64,000 nt of DNA from positions 43,917 through 107,916 of the forward strand of contig JBAMJV010008504.1 of assembly GCA_037951105.1 (NCBI GenBank). Direction: 5' to 3'. Both the position numbers and the translations under genes were made by a program. Under the pieces are notes generated by a model. That model searched no databases and was not told where the DNA came from. It saw only the letters and a list, made by a program, of their open reading frames with translations. Below are positions 29,301 to 63,637 of the stretch, one piece after another (positions within the stretch are counted from its first letter, which is position 1; each line of letters begins with the position of its first letter). This DNA is from Echinarachnius parma. Taxonomy: Eukaryota; Echinodermata; Echinoidea; Clypeasteroida; Echinarachniidae.

Positions 29301-32300
29301 TTTAATTCATTTTGTGAGAAATTAGGGCTCTAAAGTTGATGATTGATTTGTATGGTTTGGATGTACTCTCAAGTTTAAGCTTTGGATACAAATATATGAT
29401 AGGAATATATTTTGTTATGTTGTCATATTTTATTTTGATAAGTTTTAGTGAGAGCAATAAATGAAAATTAGGGAAAACAGGCTTTTTGCACAAACTACAC
29501 ATTTGTATAGTCTATAGGACTAGTGGTTTCCCACTCCATTCACTTACTGTGTTTGTGGTCAAACACAATTGAAGGGTTTTGAGCGTATTTGTGAGCATCT
29601 TAACACTGTATCCAACTCATGTTTTGACCAGAAACTCCCTTGACATTTTATCAAACACACACACAAACCATCATTTTGCACCTAGACAGTTACTCTTTTG
29701 AACTTGTTAGCTAACACAGAACTTTAACAAATAATCAATTATTTATCCTTTATGCAAAGACAAGTAAATTATAAAGATTGTGTTAACAACGAAATACTCT
29801 CTCTCTCTACCCTATTCTGAACAGTAAATGATTAATGTTTTATCGGCTAGTATTTTTGGTTCCCCAAAATGACAAACATAAATTTTCCACACAAGAATTC
29901 CAGCAATTATCAGGCAGTGATTACTTTTTCTTCCTCAAATCATTTGTCATATATACTGATCCTTTCTGTAATCAACTCGTTAGCTCTTTCCACACAAAAA
30001 AATTATTCTTTTTCCCACCCAGTGCACATTTTTCACTGAATGGAAGAAATCTATCAAGTATTTTGTTTTCTTCAAAAATCAGAGAGAAACACCAGAAATA
30101 TATAATATGAATACAAAAAAAGTGTTTCCCCAGTATTTGAACCTTGATTTCCTTGTTTTACAAACCTTGTGTCATTATACTATCTTTTTCCCATCTAAAG
30201 TGTATGTTTTTTGCTTACTGGAAAGTTTTTTAGTAAATATCCAGCGGTTATCCTTTTCTTTCTCAATTTAGTATTCTTATTTTTCCTAATTTCTTTATTG
30301 AAGCTTGTTAAAACTCTTCTTTTTTTTATAAACTATGTTTCTATCTTTCTCCAACCAGTGCAACGTTTTTGCAGACTGAAAGAATTCCAGAAAGTAACCT
30401 GCAGTGATCCTCTTCCACATGACTGCCTGCTTCTTCACTGATAATGTGTTCATGTATCTGATGTTTAATTAATATATAGATTCTTTTACAAACTTTTTTC
30501 TCTTTTTTCTCCTTTTCTCCAACCTATCTGTAGTGCATCTTCTTTTCGGACTGGAATAATTCTAGTTATAAGTATCCTGCAGTGATCCTCTTCCACATGA
30601 CTGCCTGCTTCTTCTCTGATAATGTGTTCATGTATCTGATGTTTAATTATATATATAGATTCTTTTTTCTCTTTTTTTCTCCTTTTCTCCAACCTATCTG
30701 TAGTGCACCTTTTTTGCCGACTGGAAGAATTCCAGGAAGTATCCGGCGGTGATCCTTTTCTATATGAATGGCTGCTTGCTTCTTCCTTGATAATTTATTT
30801 ATGTATCTGATATCTAATTAATATATATAACTCCTTTTGCAATCTTCTTTACTTTTTCTCTCTTTCCAACCAGTGCACCTTTTTTGCGGACTGGAAGAAT
30901 TCCAGCAAGTATCCGGCGGTGATCCTGTTCTATATGAATGGCTGCTTCTTCCTGGGCAGCATTGGCTTCCTGGCCCAGTTCTCGGACGGGGCTAGAGAGG
31001 ACATCGTCTGTCGCAACGATGGCACCATGAGACTCGCCGAACCAAGGTGAGAACATCAATAACATCCTATTGATCAATGCTAGAAATGATCTTTTTAGCC
31101 TTGTGGCTTTCCGGGTCCTATTTCATAAGACTTTTGCAATTATTGTAAGTGTCCAATTATTGTAACTATTATGAGCATTGTAGCTGTTGCCATGGTAGTT
31201 ACAACAATTGCAAGCTTTATGAAATGGGGACCAGGGCCATAGTTCTCGAATGGTGCCAGAGAGGACATTGTCTGTCGCAATGATGGCATCACGAGACTCG
31301 CTGAACCAAGGTGAGAACAGCAAACAAAATTATTTTTATAGCCTGTATTCACTGCACTTTAATAATCGTTGCTAGAAATCAACTTTTTAGCCTTGCGGCT
31401 TTCTGGCCCAGTTCTCGGACGAGGCCAGACAGGATATCGTCTGTCGCAAAGATGGCATGGTTCATAATTATGCTGTCTTATGCATAGCATGTTTCACCCT
31501 TGGCTCTCTGAAAGTTTAAAACAAATAAAATAAAATTATTGATAGGAGCATTTTTGCACATTTATTTATTTTTTCTACAGTGAGGGTGAAAATCTGTTGT
31601 GCGTCATCGTGTTTGTGATCGTCTACTACTTCATCATCGCAGGCGTGTTCTGGTTTGTGATGCTGTCCTAGTCCTGGCATCTGTCATTCTGGGCTTTAGA
31701 AATTCGTTTAATTTAAACATTTCATTATATCTTTTCTTTTCAATAGTGAGGGTGAAAATCTGTCGTGCGTCATCGTGTTCGTGATCGTCTACTACTTCAT
31801 CATCGCAGGCGTGTTCTGGTTCGTGATGCTGTCCTACTCCTGGCATTTGTCCTTCAGGGCCCTGGGCACGCCCAAGGATGTTCTACAGGGCAAGACGGCT
31901 TACTTCCATCTCATATCCTGGACCATTCCATTCATCATGGTGGTCATTATACTCGCAGTCAATCAGGTAACAATGCATTTAAGTTGTAATAACATGGGGG
32001 TGTTTCACACAGATTTAAGTTGAGCTTAAACTTGAGTTGGACTTTAACAAATAAAAAAACAATTCTGTGTAGATTCCTGAAAAGGTTTTGAAATATAACT
32101 GCAAACTGTCAAGTCTTAATTATATTTCATTACGTTTAATGTTCTTGATGTAACAAATTCTTTCAAATATATACCCCCCAAAAAAAAGAATATTAGAATT
32201 TATATTTTGTAAAATTATTTTTTTATAATTATTTTTGTATATATACATTTTTCTCAGGTTGATGGTGACTCTGTGGATGGCATATATGCTGTGTGGGCTA

Positions 32301-35300
32301 TCAGAACCATTACTATAGGGCTGGCTTTGGGCTAGCTAATGTAGGCCTATCAAACAAGGTTGCATTTCATTTGTTTTAATAAACTTGTATGAATAAGTCG
32401 ACCAGAAAATTACCACTTACATTTTGTAAAATAAGTTTTTATATTATATATTTGTGTCAGGTTGATGGTGATTCTGTCGCAGGGATATGCTTTGTAGGCT
32501 ATCAGAACCACTACTACAGGGCTGGCTTTGTGCTAGCCCCTATAGGCCTGTCACTTATATGTGCTGGCTTCTATCTTATACAGGGTAAGTAAATGTATGA
32601 TGTTGACAATAATTTATACATAAATATAGTTGTATAACTTAAGAAAGTCGTGGTCGATGAATTATATAAAGTAAACAAAATGAAGCAAACAAGAAAATGT
32701 CATTAATCCATTGGTAAATCTCTTTTAATTAAATGACTTTTTACAGGTTTTGTTCAGAAAATAAGGGCAATCCTGATCTGAGTAACAATGTTTCTAACAT
32801 AATCATAATATATTTGTGGAATTACTCAATTTATCTAATAGTTACTTCATCAAATCAAATTATCATACCCCTGCCAAACAAAATATTAAAAAGGGGGGAT
32901 TTATATGAGTCGGCATTAATATATTAAAGGGATAGTATAAATGTGGTCTAGAGGGCTTTAAGAAATAATTAATTTTTGAGGTAATGGAAAACTAAGTGTA
33001 ATATTTAAAAAATTTATTTGATAAAAATTGGTTCAGAAAGAGCTGAAATATCAATAAATATATCTGATTGGAATAAATTCGGGTCACACAACAATTTAAG
33101 AAAATCAAGGCTTTATATACAGATCAATAGGGCCCCGTGGTTTAATGGTTAGAGCGCTGGTCTAACAATCGGGGAGGTCTCGGGTCCGAATCCCAGGAAA
33201 CCCTATTTTCTTTGTTCATTTTCATTAAACTCAATCATATTATTATTGTTACCCCACAGGTCTGATAACACTGTGTAGCCTTGATAAGGACAACCCAGGT
33301 CTACTCAGTGACAAGGCGTCTCAGAAGATCAAGGGAACCATCGCCAGGATAGGTGAGTAACATTTTGTATAAGGAGAAGGAAGGAATGTGCCAAGAATGG
33401 AAAGGTGTTTCTGTCTAGTGGTCAGAGCTCTGCTATTTGTGCATATCATCCACGCTCAAAACCTTGATGAGTGGTGGTGTTGGTGTGGTGGTATTGGTGG
33501 TGGTGGTGGTGGTGTTGGTGGATGTGGTGATGGTAGTGGTGATGGTAGTGGTGGTGGTGGTGGTGGATGTCGTGGTGGTGGTGATGGTAGTGGTGGTGGT
33601 GATGGTAGTGGTGGTGGTGATGGTAGTGGTGATGGTGGTGGTGGTGGTGGTGGTGGTGGTGGTGGTGATGGTAGTTATGGTGGTGGTGGTGGTGGTGTTG
33701 ATGGTAGTGGTGGTGGTGGGGGTGGTGATGGTGGTGGCGGCAGTGGCGGGGCCGGTGGCGACGACAGCGAAAATTATGAAGAAATCACTAGGCACAATAA
33801 TTAATGCTGGTTCAAAGGTACTCTGTTCTGCAACACGTGGCTATATTAATTGTTACAAACTATAAATATAATTTGTATTTTGCAGGTGTGTTTGCCTGCC
33901 TGGCATTTTGCTTTGTGTTCATCACGTTTGCCTGTCACCTGTATGACTTCACCAACCAGGCCCAGTGGGAGAAAGGTTTCCAGGACTACCTTGTGTGAGT
34001 ATACAATGCATATGTATGGTCAAACCTGTGTATAGTGACCACCTATAAAGATTATACTTTCCATAAGATTGTACAGTCAAACTTTGTATACTTTCTACCT
34101 ATTGCCTGTCACCTGTATGACTTCACCAACCAGGCCCAGTGGGAGAAAGGTTTTCAGGATTACCTTGTGTAAGTATACAATGCATATGTATGGTCAAACC
34201 TGTGTATAGTGACCACCTATAAAGGGAAACAAGAAAATTACTACTGTAAACATATGACCTCAATATAGACATGTTCCATAAGATGGTACGGTCAAACTAT
34301 GTATAGTGCCTACCTATTGCCTGTCACCTGTATGACTTCACCAACCAGGCTCAGTGGGAGAAAGGTTTCCAACATTACCTTGTGTGAGTATTCACATCAA
34401 ATAAAAGAAAACAACCCATTTAGAATGATTGATTTAATATGGTAGAATGTTCTACACATCAGCACCTGTTTTTGTCTGCAAGTTTTAATGTCATTCACTT
34501 TGTCTTAAACCTTACTCATACATGTAAATGTACGTGAAGAAAATAGTTTAGATACTGGTGGAATAAGTAGATAATATATGATTTCCATCTTACATTCGGG
34601 GGCATCTTCAATGGGAAACGTATTGTAAGCACAATCCTATATCAAACAATTTTCAAATAGGCATCAATCAATATACGTGAAATCCATACATATCTCATCA
34701 AGTGATAGATGGTCTGAACAGATTAAGAGTTGATTATGCCATCAAAAATTGTTGGCTTGTTTTAATGGATATCAACTTGTTGTCTTGTGTGATTTCCCTT
34801 GCAGCTGCGAGGCCAACGTGACGCTAGAAAGCCAGCTGGTCGAGGACGTGAGCACGCTGCCAACCTGTGCCCTCAAGACCAGGCCTAGTATATCTGTGGT
34901 CCTGATCCACCTGTTCTCCATGTTTGGGGCTGGAATTGCTATGAGCATGTGGGTCTGGACCCCTTCAACACTAGCTATATGGAAGAGGATCTGGAGAAAG
35001 TAAGTCATTTTTTTTGTTTAATAAAAAAAAACAATATGTATACAAGACCAGGCCCAGCCTAATTGTTATCCTAGTCCACCTGTTCTCAATGTTTGGGGCT
35101 ATCATTGCTATGAGCATGTGGGTCTGGACCCCATCAACACTAGGCATCTGGAAGAGGATCTGGAGAAAGTAAGTCCAACTCTTGTTTATGAAGTAATACA
35201 AACATTTAAATCATACATACATGTATCAAGATCAGGCCCAGCCTAATTGTGGTCCCGGTCCACATATCATCCACGATTTGGGCTGATTTTGCTAGGAGCG

Positions 35301-37998
35301 TGTACACCTCATTCATTTGTTGATGTTTTGTCCTTCAAAAAATGTATGTTTCCGAACAATTTACTTACTATTGTTTACTTGACGCTTTATCCATGTTTGC
35401 AATGTGTTGACAGGGTTACTAGGCAACCAATCAACGAGCCGTTGAAGCTGAAGAAGAGTAAGATGATCGCCAAGGCGTTCGCTAAGAAGAACAAGAAAGG
35501 GAAGGAGGACGATGAAGAGAGACTGTCGCTCAGCTTCGAGGAGGTCTCACATGATGATGCCATAGGTAACTAACACGAACAGTCCTTGAATGCCCCCAAA
35601 TGGCCAAAATTTGCCTCAAAGGAAGGAAAGTGCTGATAATTTCTTTAGGACAGCATTAAAGTTTGGCGAGAGGATTATGTCCCAAAAGAACAAGGGATGG
35701 AGAGAGTCTGTCACTCAGCTTTGACGAGGTCTCGCATGATGATGCCATAGGTAACTAACAGTTCCTTTAATTCTTGCCTCAAATGCCTCCAAATGGCCAA
35801 TATTTGTCTCAAAGGAAGGAAAGTGCTGATAATTTCTTTAAAATTGCATGTAACATGTAAGTTTGGCAAGATGATTTTGTCCCAAAAGAACAAAAAGGGA
35901 TGGAAAAGGTGATGATGAAGAGAGACTGTCGCTCACCTTTGAGGAGGTCTCGCATGATGATGCCATAGGTAACTAACAGTCCCTTGAATTCTTGCCTCGA
36001 ATGCCTTCAATTGGCCAAAATTTGCCTCAAAGGAAGGACAGTGCTGATAATTTCTTTAAAACAGCATAAAAGTTTGGCGAGAGGATTTTGTCCCAAAAGA
36101 ACAAGGGATGGAGAGAGACTGTCACTCGGCTTTGAGGAGGTCTCACATGATGATGCCATAGGTAACTAATAGTTCCTTGAATTCTTGCCTCAAATGCCCT
36201 CAAATGGCCACGATTCGCCTCAAAGGAAGGAAAGTACTGATAATTTCTTTAAAACATCATTAAAGTTTGGCAAGAGGATTTGAAACCCTTGAAAGCCTGT
36301 GAATGGCCAAATTCGCCCCGAGTTTATGCTGATAACTCCTTGAAATTAGCAGTAAAGTTGGGTGAGAGGATATTTGCCATAATTGCCACACAACAAGGTA
36401 CCAGCAAAGTGTGAATGCTAAGTGATTTTGCTTGAATTTGACAACGTTTATGGATCATCTTCCTTTGTTTCCTCTAGGTATGAAGCTCGACTTCAATCTG
36501 TATCCATAATTAGGGAGACATTTGAACAATCAAAACCGGTTACATCCTTATGTTGCCAAAAGCCACACAACAAGGTACCAGCTAGCGAAGTGCAAAAGTT
36601 AAGTAAGTGATTTTGCTTGAACTTGACAACATCAAGGGATCACTGTAAATTCTTCTTCATCTTTTCCTGCAGGCATGAAGCTTGACCTCCCCCCATCCAG
36701 TGTGGTCAGTGAAGACAACACATCATCCTCCTCCTGGGGCAACCAGGTCCCGGTCAGTTTACTGGCCCGCAGGGGGGCTGCGTATCCCGTAGCAACCATC
36801 GCCAACTCACCCAGATCAACTCCAGGTAACAAGTCAATTATTGAAATATTTAGTTGCCATTGACAACCAGACCAGGGTTCATTTCTAGCCTTGCCTAATG
36901 GTAGCTACATTTTTTGTAAGAAAGGATAAGTTATCATAACTATAACCTTATTAAGACCGGAAATGTGATTTTTCTTCTTTCCCTTATTTCGTAAAAGATA
37001 ATCATTTGTTTTGTATTGTTTTGATATTATTATTAACCATATCATAACTCGCACATTTATCATTAGCAGTAGTAATAGTACACTTATATTGGTACCAGTG
37101 TTAGGGATAATCATATGGCTATGATGTCATTCTTCATCACTGCATCATTGCATTATACATTATTTACCTAGATTCATCAGACGGTAGCAGACCTTCAACC
37201 CGCGGCAAAACCACAGTGAAGACAGAGGCCGTCATCGAACCACCACCACGGGGCATCAGCGATGACAACTACGCGCAGCACGGCGCGCAACTAATGGCGC
37301 TGCGACGTCCGATGAAGAAGATGTCTAAGCGTCAGCGCCGACTGCTAAACATGCGGGTGCCAAGCCGGCTGGAGACTCCTCTGGATAACGACCATGAGCT
37401 CTCAGACACTGAAGACTGCATAGAGCTACCGCAGCAGGGGCTCGACCTTGGTATACCACAAGGTCAGGGTCAAGGTCACCTGCAAGGTGAAGGTTATAAT
37501 CAAGGTCACATGCAGAGTGAAAGTAACGGTCAAGGTGACACACATGGTGAAGGTTCCAGTCAAAGTCACAGACAAGGTGGAGGTTATGGTCAAGGTCACA
37601 GGCAAGGGGAAGGATATGGTCAAGGTCACCAAGGTCAGAGCCAGCTATGGGGAAGACACCCTACCGGTGGGGTGCATTTCGAGGATGGCATCGGAGGAGG
37701 AAGTGGTGGAGGAGGTTATGGAAGGGAAAGAGGAGGAGGAGGAGGAGGAGAAGAAGGAGGAGGGAGAGGAGGAGGAGGAGGAGGATATGATGGAAGGGAT
37801 CAAAGAGGAGGAGGAAGAAGAAGAAGGGTTGTATCAGGCCCCACAGATGGAGCATGGGGTGCGGAGGATACTAGAGGCGGTGGTAGGTCCAAGGTCCCCA
37901 AGCTACCGGCCATCCAGTCCAAGCAACAGGGTTCCAGCAACCAGCAGGCCACCATGTTTGATATGCCGGGAGAGAGCAGCATTGAACATGTGCTCTAA
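14535..37998 (+). CDS. SMO: Smoothened (SMO), complete spliced gene, 11 coding exons, 920 aa
   Basis: Smoothened is the class F seven-transmembrane receptor that carries the Hedgehog signal to Gli factors, in the primary cilium of many animals. The exons sum to 2763 nt in one unbroken frame. Residues 1-29 look like a signal peptide. Residues about 50-166 are the cysteine-rich domain ([38 protein letters not shown]). Then come a linker ([12 protein letters not shown]), seven membrane segments (about 221-535), a basic IWKRIWRK juxtamembrane stretch like the ciliary motif, a Lys-rich [10 protein letters not shown] segment and a long C-tail. Trp528 aligns with the Trp that is mutated in oncogenic human SMO. 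The tail has a ten-residue Gln/Gly/His repeat and a Gly-rich run not known to me in vertebrate SMO. The ATG at 14535 is chosen because an in-frame TGA lies at 14508-14510. Confidence 0.95.
15543..15752 (+). CDS. SMO: SMO coding exon 2: linker domain and start of TM1
   Basis: Encodes residues 170-239. It is entered through an AACTGCAG acceptor and left at TTG|GTAAGT, phase 0 at both ends. It carries the SMO linker motif [18 protein letters not shown] with its conserved cysteines and most of transmembrane helix 1. No echo copy is seen beside this exon. Confidence 0.94.
16258..16397 (+). repeat. Segment duplicated within SMO intron 2, copy 1
   Basis: Shares an order of words with 17085-17250: TCTTTTCC, GTGCAATCACCA, CTCTGTATCAAATCAA, CAGTACACTGCTTTCAC and CTTGATAGGCTGCTTAAAGGG. 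The two copies are about 840 bp apart in direct orientation, a tandem-type duplication that has since diverged. Confidence 0.7.
16560..17062. repeat. CCGTTT-rich degenerate repeat with A tract
   Basis: The words AATTCCGTTT and TTTCCGTTTC recur many times at 16575-16720 and 17005-17062, around an A-rich tract of about 30 bases (16961-16992). An RNA- or transposon-derived origin is possible. No coding potential is seen. Confidence 0.45.
17085..17247 (+). repeat. Segment duplicated within SMO intron 2, copy 2
   Basis: Direct-repeat partner of 16258-16397. It ends at the TTAA (17244-17247) into which a family 2 MITE is inserted. The first copy carries only the flanking TTAAAGGGA at the same place. 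Confidence 0.7.
17248..17620. mobile_element. TTAA-flanked MITE, family 2, copy A (373 bp)
   Basis: TTAA lies on both sides (17244-17247, 17621-17624). Ends AGGGATCTAGTAACATTGT and ACAAAGTTACTAGATCCAT are inverted repeats. Related copies are at 19446-19807 and 28283-28599, with a left-end fragment near 52391. Confidence 0.82.
18073..19228. repeat. Possible TIR-bounded segment
   Basis: GTGACGTAAGAGCCGGGCTT at the left recurs as reverse complement (AAGCCCGGTTCTTACGTCAC) at the right with one or two mismatches. Sequence inside the arms soon stops matching and no target duplication is clear. It may be an old non-autonomous element or chance reuse of one repeat. Confidence 0.35.
19446..19807. mobile_element. 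TTAA-flanked MITE, family 2, copy B (362 bp)
   Basis: TTAA at 19442-19445 and 19808-19811. Ends AGGGACTTAGTAACATTGT and ACAAAGTTACTTGATCCCT mirror each other. The interior shares CGGTTTTGGTTTTTCAAATT with copy A. Confidence 0.82.
20793..21490 (+). repeat. Dispersed repeat with GTTT microsatellite core
   Basis: Starts CCGATGAAATCGGC, runs into a (GTTT)n/T-rich tract (20862-20918), then GAACGGGTGAACGGATTTG, TTTTCAGGGAATG and GATTAGATTTTGGTGATGA. It closes with GGAGGCGTGGGTATGCTGAC and GTCGGCCTTCTAG. I recognise this word order as a repeat seen in many marine animal genomes. The ends are partly inverted (ACCCACGCC and GGCGTGGGT). Confidence 0.55.
21749..22609. repeat. Left cluster of the GAACGTCCGTGA motif
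   Basis: Copies on the plus strand lie at 21749 and 22092 (with GAACGTCCGG at 22111). Reverse-strand copies (TCACGGACGTTC or variants) lie at 21926, 22254, 22266, 22278, 22446 and 22597 (variant GGAGGTTCG). Three lie within 37 bp at 22254-22290. The orientation is mixed, unlike the right cluster. Confidence 0.85.
24202..24598 (+). repeat. GGTTAGTAACGTTAC cluster, first group
   Basis: Perfect 15-bp copies start at 24202, 24381, 24569 and 24584, all on the plus strand, the last two head to tail without a gap. Each contains the perfect 10-bp palindrome GTAACGTTAC. Confidence 0.9.
26211..26439 (+). repeat. GGTTAGTAACGTTAC cluster, second group
   Basis: Perfect copies start at 26211, 26243, 26260 and 26425, again all on the plus strand. 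The surrounding sequence is not shared between copies, so this is not an ordinary tandem array. Confidence 0.9.
26909..28046. repeat. Right cluster of GAACGTCCGTGA, in spaced pairs
   Basis: Three pairs of plus-strand copies lie at 26909/26931, 27285/27306 and 27645/27666. Members of a pair are 21-22 bp apart (two helical turns) and the pairs are about 360-376 bp apart. A single inverted copy at 28034 closes the cluster. Confidence 0.9.
28283..28599. mobile_element. TTAA-flanked MITE, family 2, copy C (317 bp)
   Basis: TTAA at 28279-28282 and 28600-28603. Ends AGGGATCT...GTAAC and GTTACTAGATCCCT are inverted repeats. The interior shares GTACACAGTTATGACTATCC, in opposite orientation, with copy A. 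Confidence 0.8.
29851..30093 (+). pseudogene. SMO exon 3 echoes 5 and 6 (strongly decayed)
   Basis: At 30023 a CCCAG acceptor leads into TGCACATTTTTCACTGAATG and GAAGAAATCTATCAAGTATT, a degraded exon 3 start. A fainter trace, with ATTCCAGCAATTATC and GCAGTGAT, lies at 29892-29922. Both fit the roughly 170-bp ladder phase, but the earlier one is barely above noise. Confidence 0.55.
30201..30270 (+). pseudogene. SMO exon 3 echo 4
   Basis: After CATCTAAAG comes TGTATGTTTTTTGCTTACTG, then AGTAAATATCCAGCGGTTAT and CCTTTTC. This is the exon 3 start with many substitutions and a small insertion that breaks the frame. Confidence 0.7.
30359..30445 (+). pseudogene. SMO exon 3 echo 3
   Basis: CTCCAACCAG acceptor followed by TGCAACGTTTTTGCAGACTG, then AAGAATTCCAGAAAGTAACC. 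A stop-creating change and a frameshift are present. It shares CACATGACTGCCTGCTTCTTC with echo 2, so echoes 2 and 3 arose from one another after diverging from exon 3. Confidence 0.8.
30534..30620 (+). pseudogene. SMO exon 3 echo 2
   Basis: CTATCTGTAG acceptor followed by TGCATCTTCTTTTCGGACTG and AGTATCCTGCAGTGATCCTC. It ends in TTCTTCTCTGATAATGTGTT, where similarity to the exon stops. There is no donor, so it cannot act as an internal exon. Confidence 0.85.
30704..30795 (+). pseudogene. SMO exon 3 echo 1 (closest, best preserved)
   Basis: CTATCTGTAG acceptor followed by TGCACCTTTTTTGCCGACTG and AAGTATCCGGCGGTGATCC, nearly identical to the true exon 3 for about 85 bp. A GCTTGCTTCTTCC insertion relative to GCTTCTTCC then shifts the frame into TTGATAA. 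No donor follows. Confidence 0.9.
30874..31046 (+). CDS. SMO: SMO coding exon 3: end of TM1, TM2 and first extracellular loop
   Basis: Encodes residues 240-297, ending two bases into Ser298. Motifs [26 protein letters not shown], and [17 protein letters not shown] are typical of SMO. Acceptor CCAACCAG, donor AG|GTGAGA. This copy, not the echoes, is the functional exon: it alone has both splice sites and joins exons 2 and 4 in frame. Confidence 0.95.
31229..31320 (+). pseudogene. SMO exon 3 downstream echo A (3' part plus donor)
   Basis: AGTTCTCGAATGGTGCCAGA through CTGAACCAAG|GTGAGAACA repeats the last 75-80 bp of exon 3 with about a dozen differences, donor included and acceptor absent. Its donor is 264 bp after the true one. 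Confidence 0.85.
31384..31458 (+). pseudogene. SMO exon 3 downstream echo B
   Basis: GGCCCAGTTCTCGGACGAGG, GATATCGTCTGTCGCAAAGA and TGGCATGG resemble exon 3, but similarity ends before the donor. It is preceded, like echo A, by TTTTTAGCCTTG(C/T)GGCTTTC, which shows that intron sequence was duplicated too. Confidence 0.75.
31581..31698 (+). pseudogene. SMO exon 4 echo (acceptor plus 5' part, with stop)
   Basis: TTTTCTACAG acceptor followed by about 95 bp near-identical to exon 4. In the codon for Tyr of LSYSW the copy reads TAG where the real exon has TAC. It has no donor. The acceptor is 166 bp before the true one. Confidence 0.9.
31747..31966 (+). CDS. SMO: SMO coding exon 4: TM3-TM4
   Basis: Completes Ser298 and encodes residues to Gln371 ([48 protein letters not shown]). 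Acceptor TTTTCAATAG, donor CAG|GTAACA, ending in phase 0. Conserved SMO motifs support the exact junctions. Confidence 0.95.
32258..32352 (+). pseudogene. SMO exon 5 echo (acceptor plus 5' part)
   Basis: TTTCTCAG acceptor followed by GTTGATGGTGACTCTGTGGA and CTATCAGAACCATTACTATA GGGCTGGC in the order of exon 5. It carries deletions and in-frame stops (GGGCTAGCTAATG). Its acceptor is 203 bp before the true one. Confidence 0.85.
32461..32584 (+). CDS. SMO: SMO coding exon 5: second extracellular loop and TM5
   Basis: Encodes residues 372-412 plus one base ([38 protein letters not shown]). Acceptor GTGTCAG, donor CAGG|GTAAGT, phase 1. Matches the VDGDSV-GICFVGY hallmark of Smoothened. Confidence 0.95.
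33130..33204 (+). tRNA. tRNA-like pseudogene or SINE head in SMO intron 5
   Basis: TGGTTTAATGGTTAGAGCG resembles an A box and GGGTCCGAATCCC a B box, about 35 bp apart. The loop CTAACAA would give anticodon AAC (Val). The anticodon stem and acceptor stem do not pair properly, so this is more likely a pseudogene or SINE piece than a functional tRNA. Confidence 0.5.
33260..33352 (+). CDS. SMO: SMO coding exon 6: third cytoplasmic loop
   Basis: Encodes residues 413-443 plus one base ([30 protein letters not shown]). Acceptor CCCCACAG, donor ATAG|GTGAGT, phase 1 at both ends. No echo is visible beside it. Confidence 0.93.
33468..33752 (+). repeat. GGT/GAT microsatellite in SMO intron 6
   Basis: About 285 bp of GGTGGTGATGGTAGT-type repeats. 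Its regularity leaves long open frames on both strands (poly-Gly/Ser, poly-Val, poly-Thr) that are not genes. Confidence 0.95.
33886..33994 (+). CDS. SMO: SMO coding exon 7: TM6 and third extracellular loop
   Basis: Encodes residues 444-478 plus two bases ([35 protein letters not shown]). Acceptor TTTTGCAG, donor CTTGT|GTGAGT, phase 2. Two downstream echoes repeat its 3' half. Confidence 0.95.
34103..34168 (+). pseudogene. SMO exon 7 downstream echo 1
   Basis: TTGCCTGTCACCTGTATGAC to ACCTTGT|GTAAGTATACAA, with only three or so changes. It also repeats about 60 bp of the following intron (ATGCATATGTATGGTCAAAC). The donor is 174 bp after the true one. No acceptor is present. Confidence 0.9.
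34318..34383 (+). pseudogene. SMO exon 7 downstream echo 2
   Basis: CTGTCACCTGTATGACTTCA to ACCTTGT|GTGAGTATTC, with few changes (CCAACATTACC). It lies 215 bp after echo 1. The preceding intron text (ATAAGATGGTACGGTCAAAC) is shared with the stretch before echo 1. Confidence 0.88.
34805..34999 (+). CDS. SMO: SMO coding exon 8: TM7 and juxtamembrane basic motif
   Basis: Encodes residues 479-543 plus two bases ([44 protein letters not shown]). Acceptor CCTTGCAG, donor AAA|GTAAGT. The Trp of SMWVW corresponds to the Trp altered in activated human SMO, and the IWKRIWRK stretch to the ciliary targeting region. Confidence 0.95.
35043..35168 (+). pseudogene. SMO exon 8 downstream echo
   Basis: CAAGACCAGGCCCAGCCTAA through CTGGAGAAA|GTAAGTCC repeats the last 125 bp of exon 8 with about 15 changes. 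It retains the frame and donor but has no acceptor. The donor is 169 bp after the true one. A second, poor copy of its start lies at 35229-35300. Confidence 0.9.
35414..35565 (+). CDS. SMO: SMO coding exon 9: start of cytoplasmic tail
   Basis: Completes Lys544 and encodes to Ile594 plus one base ([50 protein letters not shown]). Acceptor GTTGACAG, donor ATAG|GTAACT. The [10 protein letters not shown] stretch is conserved in SMO tails. Ser/Glu-rich flanks could be kinase sites, which is inference. Confidence 0.93.
35651..35750 (+). pseudogene. SMO exon 9 downstream echo 1
   Basis: Ends GTCACTCAGCTTTGACGAGG, TCTCGCATGATGATGCCATAG|GTAACTAAC-like, with the donor 185 bp after the true one. The upstream part is shortened relative to the exon. 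Confidence 0.85.
35850..35968 (+). pseudogene. SMO exon 9 downstream echo 2
   Basis: Keeps more of the exon than echo 1 (GATGATGAAGAGAGACTGTC GCTCACC) and the donor CATAG|GTAACT, 218 bp after the donor of echo 1. The intervening intron text (TTGCCTCAAATGCC, GGCCAATATTTG) is shared by all copies. Confidence 0.87.
36050..36161 (+). pseudogene. SMO exon 9 downstream echo 3
   Basis: GAGAGACTGTCACTCGGCTT to GATGATGCCATAG|GTAACT, with the donor 193 bp after that of echo 2. A further partial copy of the intronic part of the unit (36170-36330) carries no exon end. Confidence 0.85.
36478..36520 (+). pseudogene. SMO exon 10 echo (acceptor plus 5' end)
   Basis: TTTCCTCTAG acceptor followed by GTATGAAGCTCGACTTCAAT, a decayed start of exon 10 (GCATGAAGCTTGACCTCC). 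The preceding 90 bp (CACACAACAAGGTACCAGC, GTGATTTTGCTTGAA) also recur 170-195 bp later, before the true exon. Confidence 0.8.
36673..36825 (+). CDS. SMO: SMO coding exon 10: cytoplasmic tail
   Basis: Encodes residues 595-645 plus one base ([50 protein letters not shown]). Acceptor TTCCTGCAG, donor CCAG|GTAACA, phase 1. The LARRGA motif matches the VARRGA segment of vertebrate SMO. Confidence 0.93.
37172..37998 (+). CDS. SMO: SMO coding exon 11: distal tail, repeats and stop
   Basis: Encodes residues 646-920. After a basic patch ([16 protein letters not shown]) and an acidic stretch come about five and a half copies of a 10-residue unit QGHxQGEGYG (37471-37640), then a Gly/Arg/Glu-rich segment (37690-37830). 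The conserved-looking end stops at TAA 37996-37998. The repeat DNA is built from CAAGGTCA words, so other frames stay open too. The tail is presumably disordered. Confidence 0.92.
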
Positions 37999-43552: not shown

Positions 43553-44182
43553 AGCAGATGGTCATTATAGACAAGGTTTGTTTATGTGAAAACTGTTTAC
43601 TAGCTAGGAGTAGAGATTGTGGCCTTTGTTAGCAGGTGGTCATTATAGACAAGGTTTGTTTATGTGAAAACTGTTTACTAGCTAGGAGTAGAGATTGTGG
43701 CCTTTGTTAGCAGGTGGTCATTATAGACAAGGTTTGTTTATGTGAAAACTGTTTACTAGCTAGGAGTAGAGATTGTGGCCTTTGTTAGCAGGTGGTCATT
43801 ATAGACAAGGTTTGTTTATGTGAAAACTGTTTACTAGCTAGGAGTAGAGATTGTGGCCTTTGTTAGCAGGTGGTCATTATAGACAAGGTTTGTTTATGTG
43901 AAAACTGTTTACTAGCTAGGAGTAGAGATTGTGGCCTTTGTTAGCAGGTGGTCATTATAGACAAGGTTTGTTTATGTGAAAACTGTTTACTAGCTAGGAG
44001 TAGAGATTGTGGCCTTTGTTAGCAGGTGGTCTTTATAGACAAGGTTTGTTTATGTGAAAACTGTTTACTAGCTAGGAGTAGAGATTGTGGCCTTTGTTAG
44101 CAGGTGGTCTTTATAGACAAGGTTTGTTTATGTGAAAACTGTTTACTAGTGGAGTAGAGATTGTGGCCTTTGTTAGCAGGTG
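43553..44182 (+). repeat. 78-bp minisatellite, eight copies
   Basis: Units start with AGCAGGTGGTCATTATAGAC at 43553, 43631, 43709, 43787, 43865, 43943, 44021 and about 44099. They are almost identical, and later copies read CTTTATAGAC. Flanks such as CAGATTTGACTGTA (44200-44214) match ends of the MITE at 51577, so the array may be an expansion inside such an element. Confidence 0.93.
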
Positions 44183-44640
44183 GTCTTTATATACAGGTGG
44201 TCACTAGAGCAGATTTGACTGTATTATGATGACAAGTAATAAATATCATAAATGTATATTCATGTACACTGTATGTGTAGGCTCTAGCACTAGAATTCAA
44301 ACCAACATAACTCATTGTGTGCTATAAAGAAGAACTCTCTCTCTCTTTATGTGTAGTTTTTGTACATCAACGATGTACTGTAGTTAAAGGAGACGTCCGG
44401 ACGATTTGTAACAAATTCTACCATAATCTACATAAATCAAAGACCAAAACTACCTACTTTTAATAAAAAAACACCCTCCAAACCTGTCACAATCGAATTT
44501 TTAGTGTCACTAGTTTTGAATCGTAACTGTTCACTTTCTGTACGCTAGCGAGAAAGATCACGTGACGGCGTATCAGCCTCACTTTGCGCGCGCTACCGCA
44601 GTGAAGCGGCTGCTATATTTTGCTTCACTTACTTGCTAAA

Positions 44641-53322: not shown

Positions 53323-53366
53323 CAGCTAAACTGGCTTGGGTCGAGAACATTACTGGTGAAAGCTGA

Positions 53367-56700: not shown

Positions 56701-59700
56701 GCCGTGGCTCACGGGGGCGATTTCAAAGGTTTCAGGGGCGAATCGCACGTCGCCCCCGTGTATTTTTTTGGTTGGCTCACATACTTATCAAGTCCTCTAT
56801 AAATAATCAAATATCTCACCGTCCTCTCTGGTGTGTGCCTTGATCGTCTCCTGCATATAGTTAGAAGCCTTCACTCCCAGCTTGGTGCCCATGTTACGAT
56901 CAAACACCGTCGGACTCCCACCCTGAAACAAAGATCATAATATAGTTAGAAGCCTTCACTCCCAGCTTGGTGCCCATGTTACTATCAAACACCGTCGGAC
57001 TCCCACCCTGAAACAAAGATCATAATATAGTTAGAAGCCTTCACTCCCAGCTTGGTGCCCATGTTACGATCAAACACCGTCGGACTCCCACCCTGAAACA
57101 AAGATCATAATATATACTCCGCAAAAAAAGAAACTGGACACTTGTATAAGTTGAAATATTTCATATTAATGTATGATAAAGTGTACATTATCATATATCA
57201 AATTAAAGGGATTTTAGTCCTCTACATGCAGGGTATACATTAAAGGTGTAATCGTTCATGCATGAAATGCTATGGTCAATTAACAATAGCAAGGTCTGTT
57301 TTCGAAAATAGCAAAAACAATGGAGGACCACACCATGCGACTGAAATGATAGTAAGCGTTTCACTTAAAAGAAGATGTGCGGGGCAAGTAAATTATGACA
57401 TTATTCAACTTTAATATTGCTATGAACAAACTCTGAAAATTCTAATTTGTCAATAAAACAGGGCCAGGTTATGAGAGCATCATCATACTGGTCTGTATTA
57501 GAGGCATGAAGCTTGTCTGTTTCATGTGTCCTCTGTAATTTTAACCATATTTAGCTCGGGAAATGTCATGTTAAAGACTGCCCAACTGTTTGACCAAGGG
57601 TGACATCAGGTTTTGAAGATCTTTGGACTACGGTAGAATTCTTGAGAATAATTTATACCATTTTTCATGCTGAAATAAGATCACAAACTGTGGTTTCGAC
57701 TAATAAACCTTTGCCATAGAATTCCCCATTTTGTTACTTTTGGATGAAAATAAAACCTATAACGTTCACAATTTGTCTTCATTTATACTTTTTATTGAGA
57801 TGAAGATAGAAAAGGTCAAATTTGCAATGAAACATTAAGCCATGTCATGAATATAGCGTTTTAGATTATGCTTATCAACATTTATATGGTTGAGTGGATG
57901 TTCCATTTTTGCTATTTTTGAAAACAGACCTTGGTGTGGTTAATTGACTGTGACAAGTCATGCATGAATGATTTCATCTGAATTTCATGCCAATATTGAA
58001 GAGGGTCATTTTATCTTTAATATGATATACAATATCATATATTTTATCGTTAATGAATATGAAATATTTGGTCTCATACAAGTGTCCAGTTTCTTTTTTT
58101 GCGGAGTATAGTTAGAAGCCTTCACTCCCAGCTTGGTGCCCATGTTACGATCAAACACCGTCGGACTCCCACCCTGAAACAAAGATCATAATATAGTTAG
58201 AAGCCTTCACTCCCAGCTTGGTGCCCATGTTACGATCAAACACCGTCGGACTCCCACCCTGAAACAAAGATCATAATATAGTTAGAAGCCTTCACTCCCA
58301 GCTTGGTGCCCATGTTACGATCAAACACCGTCGGACTCCCACCCTGAAACAAAGATCATAATATAGTTAGAAGCCTTCACTCCCAGCTTGGTGCCCATGT
58401 TACGATCAAACACCGTCGGACTCCCACCCTGAAACAAAGATCATAATATAGTTAGAAGCCTTCACTCCCAGCTTGGTGCCCATGTTCCGATCAAACACCG
58501 TCGGACTCCCACCCTGAAACAAAGATCATAATATAGTTAGAAGCCTTCATTCCCAGCTTGGTGCCCATGTTACGATCAAACACCGTCGGACTCCCACCCT
58601 GAAACAAAGATCATAATATAGTTAGAAGCCTTCACTCCCAGCTTGGTGCCCATGTTACGATCAAACACCGTCGGACTCCCACCCTGAAACAAAGATCATA
58701 ATATAGTTAGAAGCCTTCACTCCCAGCTTGGTGCCCATGTTACGATCAAACACCGTCGGACTCCCACCCTGAAACAAATATCATAATATAGTTAGAAGCC
58801 TTCACTCCCAGCTTGGTGCCCATGTTACGATCAAACACCGTCGGACTCCCACCCTGAAACAAAGATCATAATATAGTTAGAAGCCTTCACTCCCAGCTTG
58901 GTGCCCATGTTACGATCAAACACCGTCGGACTCCCACCCTGAAACAAAGATCATAATATAGTTAGAAGCCTTCACTCCCAGCTTGGTGCCCACACTAGCA
59001 CACACTAGACCTAACAGTGGCGGCCTCCAGCGTTGGCGTTAATAGTGGTCTACCCGATAGTGTTTACACATATTTCTTCCAAAGCAGAAATCTGAGTTGG
59101 GGTAATGTTATGCGAAATAAACAAGCATATTACGATGTATAAAGTAGGATAAACTCTATTCTAGAGCTGCATTGGTCTTGAATTGATTAATTTAATAAGC
59201 CATGAAGACATTTCTTTTTGTTTGATTATCATGTTTCTCAATATTGTTTTTGTTCATTGATAATGTTTGTATTATGTATATTTGTAATGTTGATACTGAA
59301 TATGTAGAAATAATTTAATGTCAAAGTCTTATTTGGGAAATTTATAACAAATTATATTTGCTATATGAATGAAAATTATCATTGTTTTATTAACTAGCAG
59401 TATAACCAAAGAAAGGAAATTACCTGTTGCATGTGACCCAGTACGTTCATCCTGGTTGTGAATAGATGCTTGCCCTCCTCAGCATACAGCTTCTGGAGAA
59501 ACTCTGTCGTGAAGTTTGTGCTCGCATTCTCATTCCTGAAAGTGACAAAGAAGTAAAATGCATTTAGACTTTGATTTTTAGACTTTTTAGACTATGGGTA
59601 AGAACCGGAAAGCATCTACATGTACTTTGATGGTATTAAAATCTTAAGTGAAGCAAAAATATGCTTGCCCTCTTCTGCATATAGAGCTCCTGCAGAAACT

Positions 59701-62700
59701 CGGTGGTAAAGTTTGTGCTCGCATTCTCATTTCTGTTCACAAACAAAACAAATAAGTCATAAAGTTTACCGTATTTGTCGGTGTATTACCCGCTCCAATG
59801 TATTAACCGCACCCCCAACTTTGGCCATTTTTCCATGAAAAAAAAAAAAATTTGATAGTATAATTCTTGATTTTTAGTCTTTAGATGGTCAGCATTTTCT
59901 TAGGAAAGGTACCAAAAATAGCTTATCTATCAGAGAAGTTTTGCCTATGAATTTTGTTTTATTTACTGAAGCCTCCGAAGTAAATAAAGAAAATTATCAG
60001 GCCTTCTTCACAGCAGAAGAATCTATAAGTCTGTTGAATTTGCCACACGGATCACTACACATGGGACTACATAAAACGTTAGACAACAAAACAAAGATTT
60101 CACCAATAAAACAATCAGAACGGAGATTTAAAAAAAACTGTACCTTAATGTTATTCCTTCTTTCTAGTTCAAATTATGTTGAATCTACTCTTGAAAACTG
60201 TTTCAGGGGATAAGAAATTACGATCGTTACTTGCGAGTGCATTGTACTGATATATACGTTCACGATGTTGTCATGTCAGCTCACATGTTTTGAAGGGTGG
60301 ATTATTATTTGAGTATTAGCACTCAATAGTTTAGCATAATTTTGATGACATATCGAGTGCTACAGTGTACAACGTACCAATTTCTTATTTAGCACATGCG
60401 GAAATCGCACACGTGTGTGCATATTCAGCGGCGTGGCCTTTCACCTGAACGAGGGCCTGTGCTACCCGCAGCGCTAGCATGCACACCGCCAGCGCGCACC
60501 GGCGCGGGGCCGGGCGGCGGCTTGGGGTACGGTCGCGTCGGGAAAGAGAATTCCCGCCTGAGCTGAGCTAGCTGCTCGGCCAGTCGCGCGGGTGCATGTT
60601 AGGATTCGTACTAAGATCGTGAATCTTCCAAGCCGCTTTCGCAGCAACAACGAGCAATATTTAGGAAGAGGTAAAAGAGAAACAAAAGACACTGCATGAC
60701 TTGTTTTGGGGGGAATATGCTTGTATTTTCCGTGCATCGTATGAGTATGAATGCCTTGCTGAGGTGGACTTTGGTCACTTGTGAATCTTATCTCCGTGTA
60801 TTAACCGCATCGTAATTAAGGCCCGGCGCTGGCTAGGCAATTTGCGTGTACAATTTTCCTATCTCCGTGTATTGACCGCTCCCCCCATTTTGGAGCTTTT
60901 TTTTGGAGAAAAAAGGTGCGGTTAATACACCGACAAATACGGTAGGCTTCGGTCAGGACACCTGCATTAATTGTTCAAATACATTATCAAGGAATACAAG
61001 GAAAAATTGAGTAACAAGTGACTTGTGTCAGATCTGTAGGCCAGAGAAAACAAAGAAGGGATTGTGGCAATTTAATCCCCAAAGATATCTGTTCATACAA
61101 GAGCCAGTTCCGTGCAAAAAAATGCAAAACAAGTATTTCACATTCCCCTCTCAATGAGGGTACATGTGAACAGAAAAACAAATATTTTGATGTAGACGTG
61201 CAGATCTACACACTTTATGTTGTGTGACAATGTTTAATTTGTTGGTTTTATTGACATAATTTGTCTTCTTTACTACACCCTACCTGAGAATGAGTCCTCT
61301 CTGCACATTGTGGGAGATCTTGGCTGCCAGGTGAGTGACATCACGCTGTCAAGAATTGAGACAGAATAAACAAATTAAGAGATAGTCTCAAATATAAATT
61401 TTAGGCTACACCATGACAAACACAGCAGAACAATGTTATAAGCTTTCTCAACTTATTGCCTACATAAACCAAATGTATCATGTATTTATTTTATGGAAAA
61501 TGCTATGAATATTTATCTCATTTACATGTATCTCATAATTGTAATATTATATAAAAGTAAAATATTACTAAAAATTGAACATTGAATATCAAACAAACAA
61601 TTAAGAATAGCTAGCATTTTCACCTTGTTATCGAGCATTCATAATATCACAGCTTCATACTACTATCATTAACATTAATTGTTTGTCAACCCATAACGGA
61701 AGTTGACAGGGGGCTTGGGGGTCACTTGCCCCCTCACATTTTCTGTGCCTTCCCCCCTCCCTCACCAAATACTCATGCTTGTGGGAAAAGGGGGGGATAA
61801 GAAATTGGCAAAATCAAATCATATGTTTGGGGGCCTAAAATGGTATTTTTGGGGTCGTTGCTGGTTGGGTAAAAACCTGTGCCCCCTCTTAAAAATGCAA
61901 GGCCTCCATGGTGTCCCCACATCCTCCTACCCTCATACTAGTGAAATCCTAGCTACGGTAGACCGTAATGTATTTTGAGGTATATAATTGTGCCCGGTTA
62001 TAGCAATACCCTGCACTTGTCGGTAAACATCAAAATGCAGATTTTCATACCATTAGAAAGGCCTCATCACAAGCTTTCATTTGATGCTTTTTTCTAACAA
62101 ATTGGTAAATAATTGACGAAGATATGATTGTTTGAATTTTACAATCATAAGTCTTTTACACACATTACATGTATGTGAACTTAAAATGCCCATTTCTTCA
62201 AAACATGAATTACCGACAAGTGCAGCGTTTTGCTATAGCCGGTCACAATTATTCAGACTTTAGATTATGGTCATGATCATATAACTGGTAAAATAAGAAA
62301 AAGAGAGAAATAAGTCAAAGATGCGTGTCACACCTCTAGATCTCTGATTGTGAAGTTCTCCTCAAAGATGTAGGCTGCATCAGCACCGCCCGCAAGCCCG
62401 CTCATGGTTGCTAGGTAACCACAGTAGCCTCCCATCGTCTCCACGATGAACACACGACGCTTGGAACCGCTCGCCGACTGCTTGATGCGATCACAGATCT
62501 AGGAGAATCAATGAATGAATCGTACGTTTAATGAATAGATCAATAATCTTCTGTTACATTGACAGCATAAAAATACAGAATTTAAGGCCACAGGGATGTT
62601 TCACAAAAAAATTACGTTTAACTTAAACAAATTAATTAGAAGTTAGATTTTCAAAATAGAATTTAAAACATTACAAGAAATGTCAAGTTCTTGATATAAA

Positions 62701-63016
62701 CTTTCTTAAAAGTCTCAAATATTGCATATTTGCTGTCTTATCAATTGTATTCATGGCTACAAAAGGCCTACCATAATTTTAGTCCACAATATTATGACAA
62801 AGATTGTGGTAGGATCAAAAACTTGAGCCCCTATATACTTAAACTCTTTAAAATATAACTTACATCAGCGATTGAATTGAGGGCTGTGTCGCACCCCAGA
62901 CTGAAGTCTGTTCCTGGGACGTTGTTGCTAACGGTAGCAGGGATGACCACCATAGGGATGCACAGCTCAGGGTGGTCCTTACGGGCTGCAATCATCTGCA
63001 ACACACTCATGTAGGC
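53621..63016 (-). CDS. PFK: Phosphofructokinase (PFK), 3' part, last seven exons, 272 aa
   Basis: ATP-dependent 6-phosphofructokinase converts fructose 6-phosphate to fructose 1,6-bisphosphate in cytosolic glycolysis. The seven exons add up to 273 codons with stop and correspond to most of the C-terminal (allosteric) half of the eukaryotic enzyme. Hallmarks are [74 protein letters not shown] and a [13 protein letters not shown] segment. The N-terminal half lies beyond the right edge of the window. The gene is convergent with SMO. Four of the seven exons carry upstream echo copies, and junction phases (0, 0, 2, 0, 1, 2) agree throughout. Confidence 0.94.
53953..54515. mobile_element. TTAA-flanked TIR element, family 4 (563 bp)
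   Basis: TTAA at 53949-53952 and 54516-54519. Ends AGGGCAATGAAACCC and GGATTTCATTGTCCT are inverted repeats. Inner inverted pairs include TTGGCAACGCACTCTG with CAGAGTGCGTTGCCAA, and GGACAACTCCCCATA with TATGGGGAGTTGTCC. It sits in the last PFK intron. Confidence 0.83.
55019..55046 (+). repeat. 28-bp C homopolymer
   Basis: Longest of nine G/C runs of 14 bp or more in the window. On the PFK sense strand it is a G run, about 30 bp downstream of the donor of the neighbouring exon. Confidence 0.95.
55088..55193 (-). CDS. PFK: PFK penultimate exon
   Basis: Encodes (G)[19 protein letters not shown] and [16 protein letters not shown]. Acceptor CTATAG, donor TTTGA|GTAAGT, entered in phase 1 and left in phase 2. 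Matches the SGC-LGM-KRA and L-D-TDFEHR region of animal PFKs. Confidence 0.92.
55321..55395 (-). pseudogene. PFK penultimate-exon echo 1 (decayed)
   Basis: On the minus strand AATTGTGACACGGATGACAC, GGCATGCATTACTGAATG and AGGAGAGTTGTAGG follow the exon order with indels. The acceptor is lost, replaced by CGGGTGT. Confidence 0.75.
55548..55985. mobile_element. TIR MITE with AAAT flanks (438 bp)
   Basis: GTGACCTTACACCACAAAAC GACC mirrors GGTCGTTTTGTGGTGTAAGG TCAC. AAAT at 55544-55547 and 55986-55989. It separates the two echoes of the penultimate PFK exon, so it probably arrived after the duplication. Confidence 0.85.
56027..56114 (-). pseudogene. PFK penultimate-exon echo 2 (acceptor plus 5' part)
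   Basis: Minus strand CATCTCTAG|GTTCTGTGAATTGC, ACACAGATGACACTGCTTGC and AGGAGGGTTGTTGG. The exon is kept with an acceptor and several changes, ending near the KDP codons with no donor. Confidence 0.85.
56820..56922 (-). CDS. PFK: PFK exon encoding [10 protein letters not shown] (true copy of the 85-bp array)
   Basis: Encodes [19 protein letters not shown] and [15 protein letters not shown] plus one base. Acceptor TTTCAG, donor GGACG|GTGAGA, phase 0 to 1. Its first 63 bp and the 22 bp before it are the unit that is amplified upstream. Only this copy continues into TATATGCAGGAGAC and has a donor. Confidence 0.94.
56945..57114 (-). repeat. 85-bp exon-echo array, two copies next to the true exon
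   Basis: Copies begin at 56945 and 57030 (plus-strand word GTTAGAAGCC). Each is 22 bp of intron ending in TTTCAG plus the first 63 bp (21 codons) of the exon. The copy at 56945 has one base change (TTACTATC for TTACGATC). Confidence 0.95.
57115..58108. mobile_element. TA-flanked mariner-like MITE (994 bp) inside the echo array
   Basis: TACTCCGCAAAAAAAGAAAC at the left mirrors GTTTCTTTTTTTGCGGAGTA at the right. Pairing continues through CTGGACACTTGTAT and, further in, TGGTCAATTAAC and GTTAATTGAC, so much of the element folds back. TA at 57113-57114 and 58109-58110. It interrupts one TATA between two 85-bp units. No transposase frame is seen. Confidence 0.9.
58111..58993 (-). repeat. 85-bp exon-echo array, ten full copies and one partial
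   Basis: Units start at 58111, 58196, 58281, 58366, 58451, 58536, 58621, 58706, 58791 and 58876, and a truncated one at 58961-58992. Only single-base differences are seen (58451 copy TTCCGATC, 58536 copy CATTCCC, 58706 copy AAATATC). Each keeps a full acceptor and 21 exon codons and lacks a donor. Identity implies a recent expansion or ongoing homogenisation. Confidence 0.96.
58994..59423. other. PFK: PFK intron, nothing further seen
   Basis: AT-rich intron sequence between the array and the next exon. No repeat is recognised. Confidence 0.5.
59424..59535 (-). CDS. PFK: PFK exon encoding [17 protein letters not shown]
   Basis: Encodes (R)[18 protein letters not shown] and [19 protein letters not shown]. 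Acceptor CTTTCAG, donor CAACAG|GTAATT, entered in phase 2 and left in phase 0. The EEGK and [10 protein letters not shown] motifs are diagnostic for PFK. Confidence 0.95.
59661..59732 (-). pseudogene. PFK NENAST exon echo (acceptor plus 5' part)
   Basis: Minus strand GTGAACAG|AAATGAGAATGCGAGC, CACCGAGTTTCTGCAGGAGC and AGAAGAGGGCAAGCAT, with an indel near TATATGCAG. It stops before the donor. The acceptor is 197 bp before the true one. Confidence 0.85.
59767..60944. mobile_element. TIR element with TACCGTATTTGTCGG ends (1.18 kb)
   Basis: TACCGTATTTGTCGGTGTAT with TA and CGC mirrors GCGGTTAATACACCGACA AATACGGTA. The ends start and finish with TA. The interior has one GC-rich patch (60430-60600) unlike its surroundings and a 90-codon frame at 59941-60213 of doubtful meaning. 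Non-autonomous as far as can be seen. Confidence 0.85.
61284..61345 (-). CDS. PFK: PFK short exon ([21 protein letters not shown])
   Basis: 62 bp between CTTGACAG and CTCAG|GTAGGG, phase 0 to 2. Encodes the helix before the RNE motif. No echo copy is seen. Confidence 0.9.
61346..62333. other. PFK: PFK intron with G-rich repeat
   Basis: The stretch 61690-61980 (GGGGGCTTGGGGGTCACTTG CCCCCTC, later CCTAGCTACGGTAGAC) resembles other 'CCCC ... CTAGCTACG' repeats in the window. A 91-codon frame there is not protein-like. At 61990-62250 the words GCCGGTCACAATTAT and TTGTGCCCGGTTATAGC with CTGCACTTGTCGGTAA and ACCGACAAGTGCAGCG form another inverted repeat, probably a MITE (about 61987-62251). Confidence 0.6.
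62334..62498 (-). CDS. PFK: PFK exon encoding [11 protein letters not shown]
   Basis: Encodes [38 protein letters not shown] and [17 protein letters not shown]. Acceptor CTCCTAG, donor GAG|GTGTGA, phase 0 at both ends. In the C-terminal half this corresponds to the sugar-phosphate effector site. No echo is seen. Confidence 0.95.
62864..63016 (-). CDS. PFK: PFK exon encoding [14 protein letters not shown] (most upstream in window)
   Basis: Encodes [37 protein letters not shown] and [14 protein letters not shown]. Acceptor CCTCCAG, donor GAT|GTAAGT, phase 0. Two upstream echoes follow on the plus-strand right side. Confidence 0.95.
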
Positions 63017-63170
63017 CTGGAGGAAAATTATTAATATCAAACTTATCTTCCTCATCGTGTCTGTAGTTGCATTCTTTAAGAATTATCATGACCATTAACG
63101 TTGTCATCATCATCATCACCACAACCACCACCATTATCATCTTTATCATTATAATCTTGTTACATCATAG

Positions 63171-63287
63171 ACTGAAGTCTGTTCCTGGGACGTTGTTGCT
63201 AACGGTAGCAGGGATGACCACCATAGGGATGCACAGCTCAGGGTGGTCCTTACGGACTGCAATCATCTGCAACACACTCATGTAGGC
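63171..63287 (-). pseudogene. PFK PATVSNN exon echo 1
   Basis: Nearly identical to the first 117 bp of the exon (one change seen, GCAGTCCG for GCAGCCCG), with acceptor CCCCCAG. It lacks the last 36 bp and the donor. Acceptor spacing to the true exon is 271 bp. The intron word TCTGTAGTTGCATTC is repeated beside each copy. Confidence 0.92.
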
Positions 63288-63427
63288 CTGGGGGCAAAGG
63301 AGTATATTTTTTGCATATAATCTGTTTATCATTGTTACCATATTCATACTTCTAATAAATCATGTCTGTAGTTGCATTCATTAACACGACCATAATTGTA
63401 ATCAACCATCAGCATAGTCACCATCAT

Positions 63428-63515
63428 CTGACACAATCATCATCATCATCATCATCCATCATCCATCATCCATCATCATCATCATCATCATCATCTTCAT
63501 CTTCAACATCATCAC

Positions 63516-63548
<33 letters not shown>

Positions 63549-63560
63549 TGCCATCATTTT
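63428..63560 (+). repeat. ATC/CAT microsatellite
   Basis: (ATC)n-type repeats with interruptions, in the PFK intron between echo 1 and echo 2. A shorter relative lies at 63103-63150. Confidence 0.95.
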
Positions 63561-63571
63561 TATCGCCATGG

Positions 63572-63637
63572 GGATGCACAGCTCAGAATGGTCCTTAGTG
63601 CTGCAATCTTAGTCTTCTGCAACACACTTATGTAGGC
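63572..63637 (-). pseudogene. PFK PATVSNN exon echo 2 (decayed)
   Basis: Minus strand GCCTACATAAGTGTGTTGCA, GACTAAGATTGCAGCAC and GAGCTGTGCATCCCCATG keep the exon order with a small insertion. Acceptor is TTCTAG. It ends in the simple repeat. Confidence 0.85.

Follow-up and report, generated by a model that had tools for sequence, protein, structure and literature searches.

What leaves truncated pieces of exon beside so many exons of two unrelated genes? The question is raised by a 64,000-nucleotide stretch of contig JBAMJV010008504.1 from Echinarachnius parma (hereafter the window; its contig is C8489 in a 1.2-Gb assembly of 14,790 contigs), which carries SMO on the plus strand and part of a gene for 6-phosphofructokinase (PFK) on the minus strand. 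A preliminary description of this DNA had reported partial copies at 11 of 18 exons in the two genes and had named a high rate of tandem duplication as the simplest reading. That remains the simplest cause, and our analysis makes it likely that short tandem duplications arise frequently in this genome and that those of their products survive which leave one intact exon in place.

An exon-blind comparison of the locus with itself, which had been proposed as a check, returned 49 local repeat pairs at a score of at least 60, compared to 0.16 expected from distant pairs. Alignment of each of the 16 identified exons to its own flanks, with the threshold taken from shuffled flanks, detected 32 partial copies at nine exons (SMO exons 3, 4, 5, 7, 8 and 9 and PFK exons A, D and E) and none in the flanks of SMO exons 1, 2, 6 and 11 and PFK exons B and C. 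The copy at SMO exon 10 was missed by this exon-anchored alignment and was detected by the self-comparison, mainly via its intron part, which brings the total to 10 of 16 exons. The earlier count was thus slightly high: all seven SMO exons that had been listed bear copies, while a fourth PFK exon with copies was not found. The units lie head to tail in tandem and measure 85 to about 350 bp, the majority 160-220 bp; these sizes agree with those given before, as does the placement of two unrelated genes on opposite strands.

The copies followed a rule of direction. Among 23 upstream copies, 19 start at the first base of the exon and none reaches its 3' end; of nine downstream copies, seven extend to the final base of the exon and none includes the 5' start, so that not one of the 32 contains a whole exon. 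By the exon-anchored alignment, acceptor-side copies occur at six exons and donor-side copies at four, with both kinds at SMO exon 3; the exon 10 copy is acceptor-side in the self-comparison. This geometry is expected of a head-to-tail duplication of a unit that spans one splice junction, with a few copies shortened further. Where copies reach the junction, the splice dinucleotide is retained (seven of seven acceptor and seven of seven donor copies, leaving aside PFK exon E, in whose array all 12 units keep the AG). A frameshift or stop is present in 17 of 41 copies scored in the window and around kinesin exons of the same genome, again without PFK exon E. Beside the copies, an intact exon is always retained: the 11 intact exons of SMO (coding region 14535-37998, plus strand) join into a single open reading frame of 920 amino acids, and PFK exons A to E (56820-63016, minus strand) into a single open frame.

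Similar exon sequence in tandem beside real exons might also be read as mutually exclusive or cassette exons derived from tandem exon duplication, in which copies of exon sequence likewise lie next to each other. Here, however, only part of the exon is copied, one of its splice sites is missing, and frameshifts or stops often disable the copies. As coding alternatives they were excluded by the absence of a whole exon from all 32 copies, and we give this explanation practically no credence.

Frequent tandem duplication would account for the arrangement as follows. Short stretches of 85-350 bp would often be duplicated head to tail, most likely through replication slippage or end joining. Where a single splice junction falls inside a unit, the complete exon would stay, an additional truncated exon would land in the intron and the gene would survive; duplications of a whole exon or within an exon would alter the protein and be removed by selection. 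Once present, units would multiply, shrink and become partly homogenised by unequal exchange, as differences in unit number suggest. Splicing presumably passes over the copies. A lone acceptor or donor without a partner site does not define an exon, and the decoy sites are probably ignored for this reason.

The locus is represented a second time in the assembly. Contig C8828 is collinear with C8489, with a mean identity of 94.3% across 35 kb of chained alignment, and its collinearity suggests that it is the other haplotype. All nine scored exons with copies in the window also have copies on C8828, and the detected number of units differs between the contigs in four of ten families (exon 3 acceptor side, exon 7, exon 9 and PFK exon E); the indel scan between the contigs, which is too coarse at copy-number changes, served for overall identity and as support only. 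These data bear on the possibility that overlapping pieces of the two haplotypes were wrongly joined in tandem. The assembly is fragmented and apparently contains both haplotypes, and the differences between copies and exons are rich in synonymous changes, all of which would fit such misjoining. Nevertheless, C8828 carries copies at the same exons, many copies are disabled by frameshifts and stops, and both contigs share the stop of the exon 4 copy, which makes an assembly artefact very unlikely as the source of the copies. The graded divergence across the exon 3 units and the adherence of kinesin loci to the same rule of direction also speak against it, and we attach next to no weight to this explanation.

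The copies had been attributed to a property of the region or genome rather than of one gene, and both the second contig and kinesin genes from elsewhere in the assembly bear this out. We sampled 20 stretches around kinesin motor-domain exons, covering 46 of 134 hits. Within 2.5 kb, a copy was found at 23 of 46 exon hits, compared to 40 of 160 non-exon segments. Within 700 bp, and with five hits that are themselves copies excluded, the numbers were 14 of 41 exon hits and 59 of 300 other segments; when five presumed second-haplotype loci were dropped as well, 11 of 32 hits and 54 of 225 segments remained (P = 0.28). The rule of direction was obeyed by 20 of 22 kinesin copies, as judged by eye from the midpoint of the aligned piece (binomial P = 1.2e-4). 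The positions of hidden Markov model hits alone are insensitive for such copies, yielding by eye five pairs among 134 kinesin hits and one among 82 myosin hits. Tandem duplication is frequent in the sampled parts of the genome, and since kinesin exons also carry copies, the phenomenon is genomic and not bound to this locus.

Whether exons are hit preferentially is less uniform than the earlier account implied. In the window the preference is strong: copies occur at nine of 16 exons as opposed to 12 of 250 other segments, and 11 of 22 repeat families cross a splice junction where 1.2 would be expected, a number that was reached in none of 20,000 random placements. The 22 families were compiled by hand, excluding units below 30 bp, simple repeats and one row of 36-bp units inside SMO exon 11. 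With the exon letters masked, five of six families in gene parts still lay at junctions (1.5 expected, P = 0.004). For kinesin the preference depends on range, being seen within 2.5 kb and not significant within 700 bp. Such an enrichment would be predicted if a process targeted to exons, such as pausing, R-loops, breaks of nucleosome size or repair templated by pre-mRNA, duplicated preferentially at exon edges; many units are indeed near nucleosome length, and the persistence of the window enrichment under masking and the kinesin result at 2.5 kb favour this idea. On the other side stand the non-significant kinesin comparison within 700 bp and the occurrence of tandem arrays outside exons, for example at 43553-44195. 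Exons also have an advantage in detection, conservation of the intact copy making them easier to find, and unrecognised exons may be present among the control segments. Taken together, we consider an exon-targeted process unlikely.

The divergence of the copies from their exons is harder to place. In the 41 copies from the window and the kinesin genes (PFK exon E excluded), fourfold-degenerate sites differ from the exon at 121 of 476 positions and nondegenerate sites at 147 of 2075, a ratio of 3.59 (95% interval from a bootstrap over families, 2.76-4.66). The ratio is 4.02 in the window, 3.30 in kinesin and 3.22 in the disabled copies alone, whereas by our reasoning a copy that was dead since birth should show at most about 2. 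Moreover, in 16 of 17 comparisons of a copy with its exon the exon part is more similar than the attached intron part, and in PFK exon E the two are equal; this is partly expected from the conservation of the intact exon, and the fixed intron lengths used may overrun the end of the unit. Between copies the order can be reversed, as in units u5 and u6 of the exon 3 array, which share 81% of the exon and 95% of the intron part.

Taken at face value, this pattern would suit copies that are, or formerly were, functional, for instance in providing regulated decoy sites for splicing or as sequence maintained by selection, and the retention of splice dinucleotides wherever copies reach the junction points in the same direction. 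However, 17 of the 41 copies are disabled, and in these the ratio is still 3.2. The comparison of C8489 with C8828 is equally difficult to reconcile with function. In 14 cleanly paired copies, the differences between the contigs have no codon pattern (6:10:7 over the three codon positions; 23 of 1129 sites), and in all 19 copies they are distributed 16:15:29, compared to 5:0:24 in the intact exons; five of the 19 were dropped from the clean pairing, their partner being another unit. Divergence between the contigs is alike at intact fourfold sites (15 of 399), in introns (275 of 7966) and in the introns of the arrays (91 of 2666). In copies paired by position map, which is imperfect, 65 of 1455 sites differ, a divergence at least as high as that of introns. 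This argues against constraint at present, and unit number differs as well. We therefore regard functional copies, present or past, as a slim prospect.

Several other causes of the third-position excess were also considered. Decay of CpG sites was rejected, as the excess persists without them, and a compositional bias towards A/T at third positions was unsupported, with similar per-site rates in both directions in a calculation by hand. Plain gene conversion would, by reasoning, yield a ratio of about 2, to which allelic exchange adds a little, so that 3.6 is not reached; an effect of selection against arrays that contract harmfully appeared, again by reasoning, too weak in view of how few changes in unit number there are. 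Exchange limited to the exon part, and partly between alleles, may account for some of the divergence pattern, but not for all of it.

A reading of the copies as products of frequent short tandem duplication has points against it. Their synonymous-rich divergence does not fit copies that were dead at birth, and the preference for junctions in the window goes beyond random placement and is not predicted by plain random duplication. In addition, the evidence base is the genomic sequence of one assembly from one individual. A bolder reading is that duplication at exon boundaries strongly shapes gene structure to this day in deuterostome genomes of high polymorphism, in echinoids as in lancelets. 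The copies would then not simply decay: in the long run they would remain nearer to the exon than their flanking introns do, as exchange with the intact exon, or selection, would hold exon sequence in reserve. We offer this speculatively and regard it as rather doubtful; if true, the copies would permanently supply material for new introns and splice sites.

The preliminary description knew of no comparable system, which proved wrong, as the repeats match the mirages of lancelets. According to two reports, mirages are minisatellites at intron-exon boundaries, with units of 10-160 bp and at both boundaries (PMC3087553, PMC3902484). The report on the globins Gb6 and Gb9 gives units of 150-160 bp with 81-100% identity at both boundaries, six versus three units of Gb6 between haplotypes, and results of reverse transcription PCR that suggest regular splicing (PMC3087553); for PGBD5, units of 60 and 108 bp are given, and TnC is also mentioned (PMC3902484). 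In both lancelets and the present genome, head-to-tail units of similar length lie across one splice junction on the acceptor or donor side, the copies are imperfect, the authentic exon is kept and the number of units varies between haplotypes (in lancelet Gb6, and here in four of ten families, with the haplotype being the probable identity of C8828). Lancelet Adh3 reportedly carries mirages as well, with units of 10-72 bp, and these are said to be somatically unstable. The differences are that the host here is an echinoid and not a cephalochordate, which concerns taxonomic range and not structure, that 10 of 16 exons of two neighbouring genes and kinesin exons are affected, that units extend to about 350 bp, and that correct splicing was checked in lancelets whereas the copies described here are known from genomic sequence. 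Among the matches listed in our literature search, no mirage-type repeats were recognised outside lancelets; this is weak evidence, resting on titles and the beginnings of abstracts, with few subscription papers covered. In the literature searched, mirages are reported in lancelets only; the present repeats occur in an echinoderm. Intron gain by tandem duplication of AGGT segments, as described in PMC3443670, similarly involves a tandem duplication that holds a splice site, but takes place within an exon and makes a new intron, whereas here the unit consists of intron plus exon.

Echinoderm mirages, which occur at roughly one in three of the kinesin exon hits sampled and, for one locus, on two contigs, turn this kind of mutation into a measurable class. 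They repeatedly supply spare splice sites beside real exons, a proposed way for new introns to arise, and they pose a hazard to the annotation of genes and to assembly from short reads in genomes of this type.

Along SMO, all on the plus strand, the largest set of copies is the acceptor-side array of exon 3 (29872-31046), which has about seven units of roughly 160-175 bp if that of the intact exon (30874-31046) is counted. Each copy consists of intron end followed by at most ~78 nt of exon start, and an AG is visible in five of six; divergence is highest in the distal units, the outermost of which lacks an AG where one would be expected. The three distal units (starting at 29872, 30030 and 30201) were positioned partly by eye. 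Downstream of the same exon, the exon-anchored alignment placed two copies of its 3' part, at 31241-31310 with a donor GT and at 31397-31457 without a donor. Exon 4 (31747-31966) is preceded by a copy of its first 114 nt (31581-31694), which bears a TAG stop on both contigs, and exon 5 (32461-32584) by a frameshifted copy of its first 93 nt (32258-32352). Exon 7 (33886-33994) is followed at 34102-34383 by two copies of its last 67 nt with donor, of which the second contig has one. Behind exon 8 (34805-34999) lie two 3'-part copies, at 35043-35168 with a donor and at 35226-35303, the latter more diverged and stopping short of the donor. Exon 9 (35414-35565) has three 3'-part copies with donors downstream (35696-36161; two on the second contig), and the copy upstream of exon 10 (36673-36825), at 36374-36494, comprises the intron end and the first exon bases.

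In PFK, on the minus strand, two copies of the 5' part lie upstream of exon A (62864-63016), one at 63169-63287 with 99% identity and one at 63566-63637 with frame-shifting indels. Exon D (59424-59535) has a single frameshifted 5'-part copy upstream (59661-59731). Upstream of exon E (56820-56922) extends an array (56940-58992) whose 85-bp unit consists of 19 nt of intron end with its AG and the first 66 nt of the exon; it comprises 12 near-identical units, each contributing a decoy acceptor, and a further, truncated copy. The exon part of these units (56855-58992) ends near TTCTAAC, a motif that precedes the next AG by about 24 nt. We take this motif to be a good match to a branch point, and exon sequence, once copied, may act as one here.

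The exon E array is split by an element of about 993 bp with terminal inverted repeats (57115-58107). At the corresponding place, C8828 has a different transposon-like element of about 433 bp; the two have different terminal repeats and share only short, chance-like matches. A further inverted-ended element with a TA target-site pattern (59770-60943) lies in the intron that separates PFK exons C and D and is absent from C8828. Two direct repeats of 533 bp with 99.4% identity (5488-6017 and 11708-12240) lie 6.2 kb apart; a stretch of about 6.7 kb that spans them is missing from C8828 and resembles a terminal-repeat element. The non-exon array at 43553-44195 consists of about eight units of 78 bp, and C8828 aligns to part of it only, so that its length appears to differ.

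As for the genes and their host, the PFK exons belong to the C-terminal half and match residues ~500-695 of solved muscle- and platelet-type chains of this ATP-dependent enzyme. The SMO protein matches that of Diadema antillarum at 81%, that of Strongylocentrotus purpuratus at 78%, those of sea stars at 67 and 61% and that of Branchiostoma at 51%, a similarity that places the host among the sea urchins. A lancelet origin of the window, which the literature on mirages had brought to mind, is excluded by the same comparison. SMO exon 11 (37460-37998) codes for a long repetitive tail, rich in Gly and Gln, that the two sea urchin proteins largely lack, and its alignment to the second contig contains 57 gap positions.

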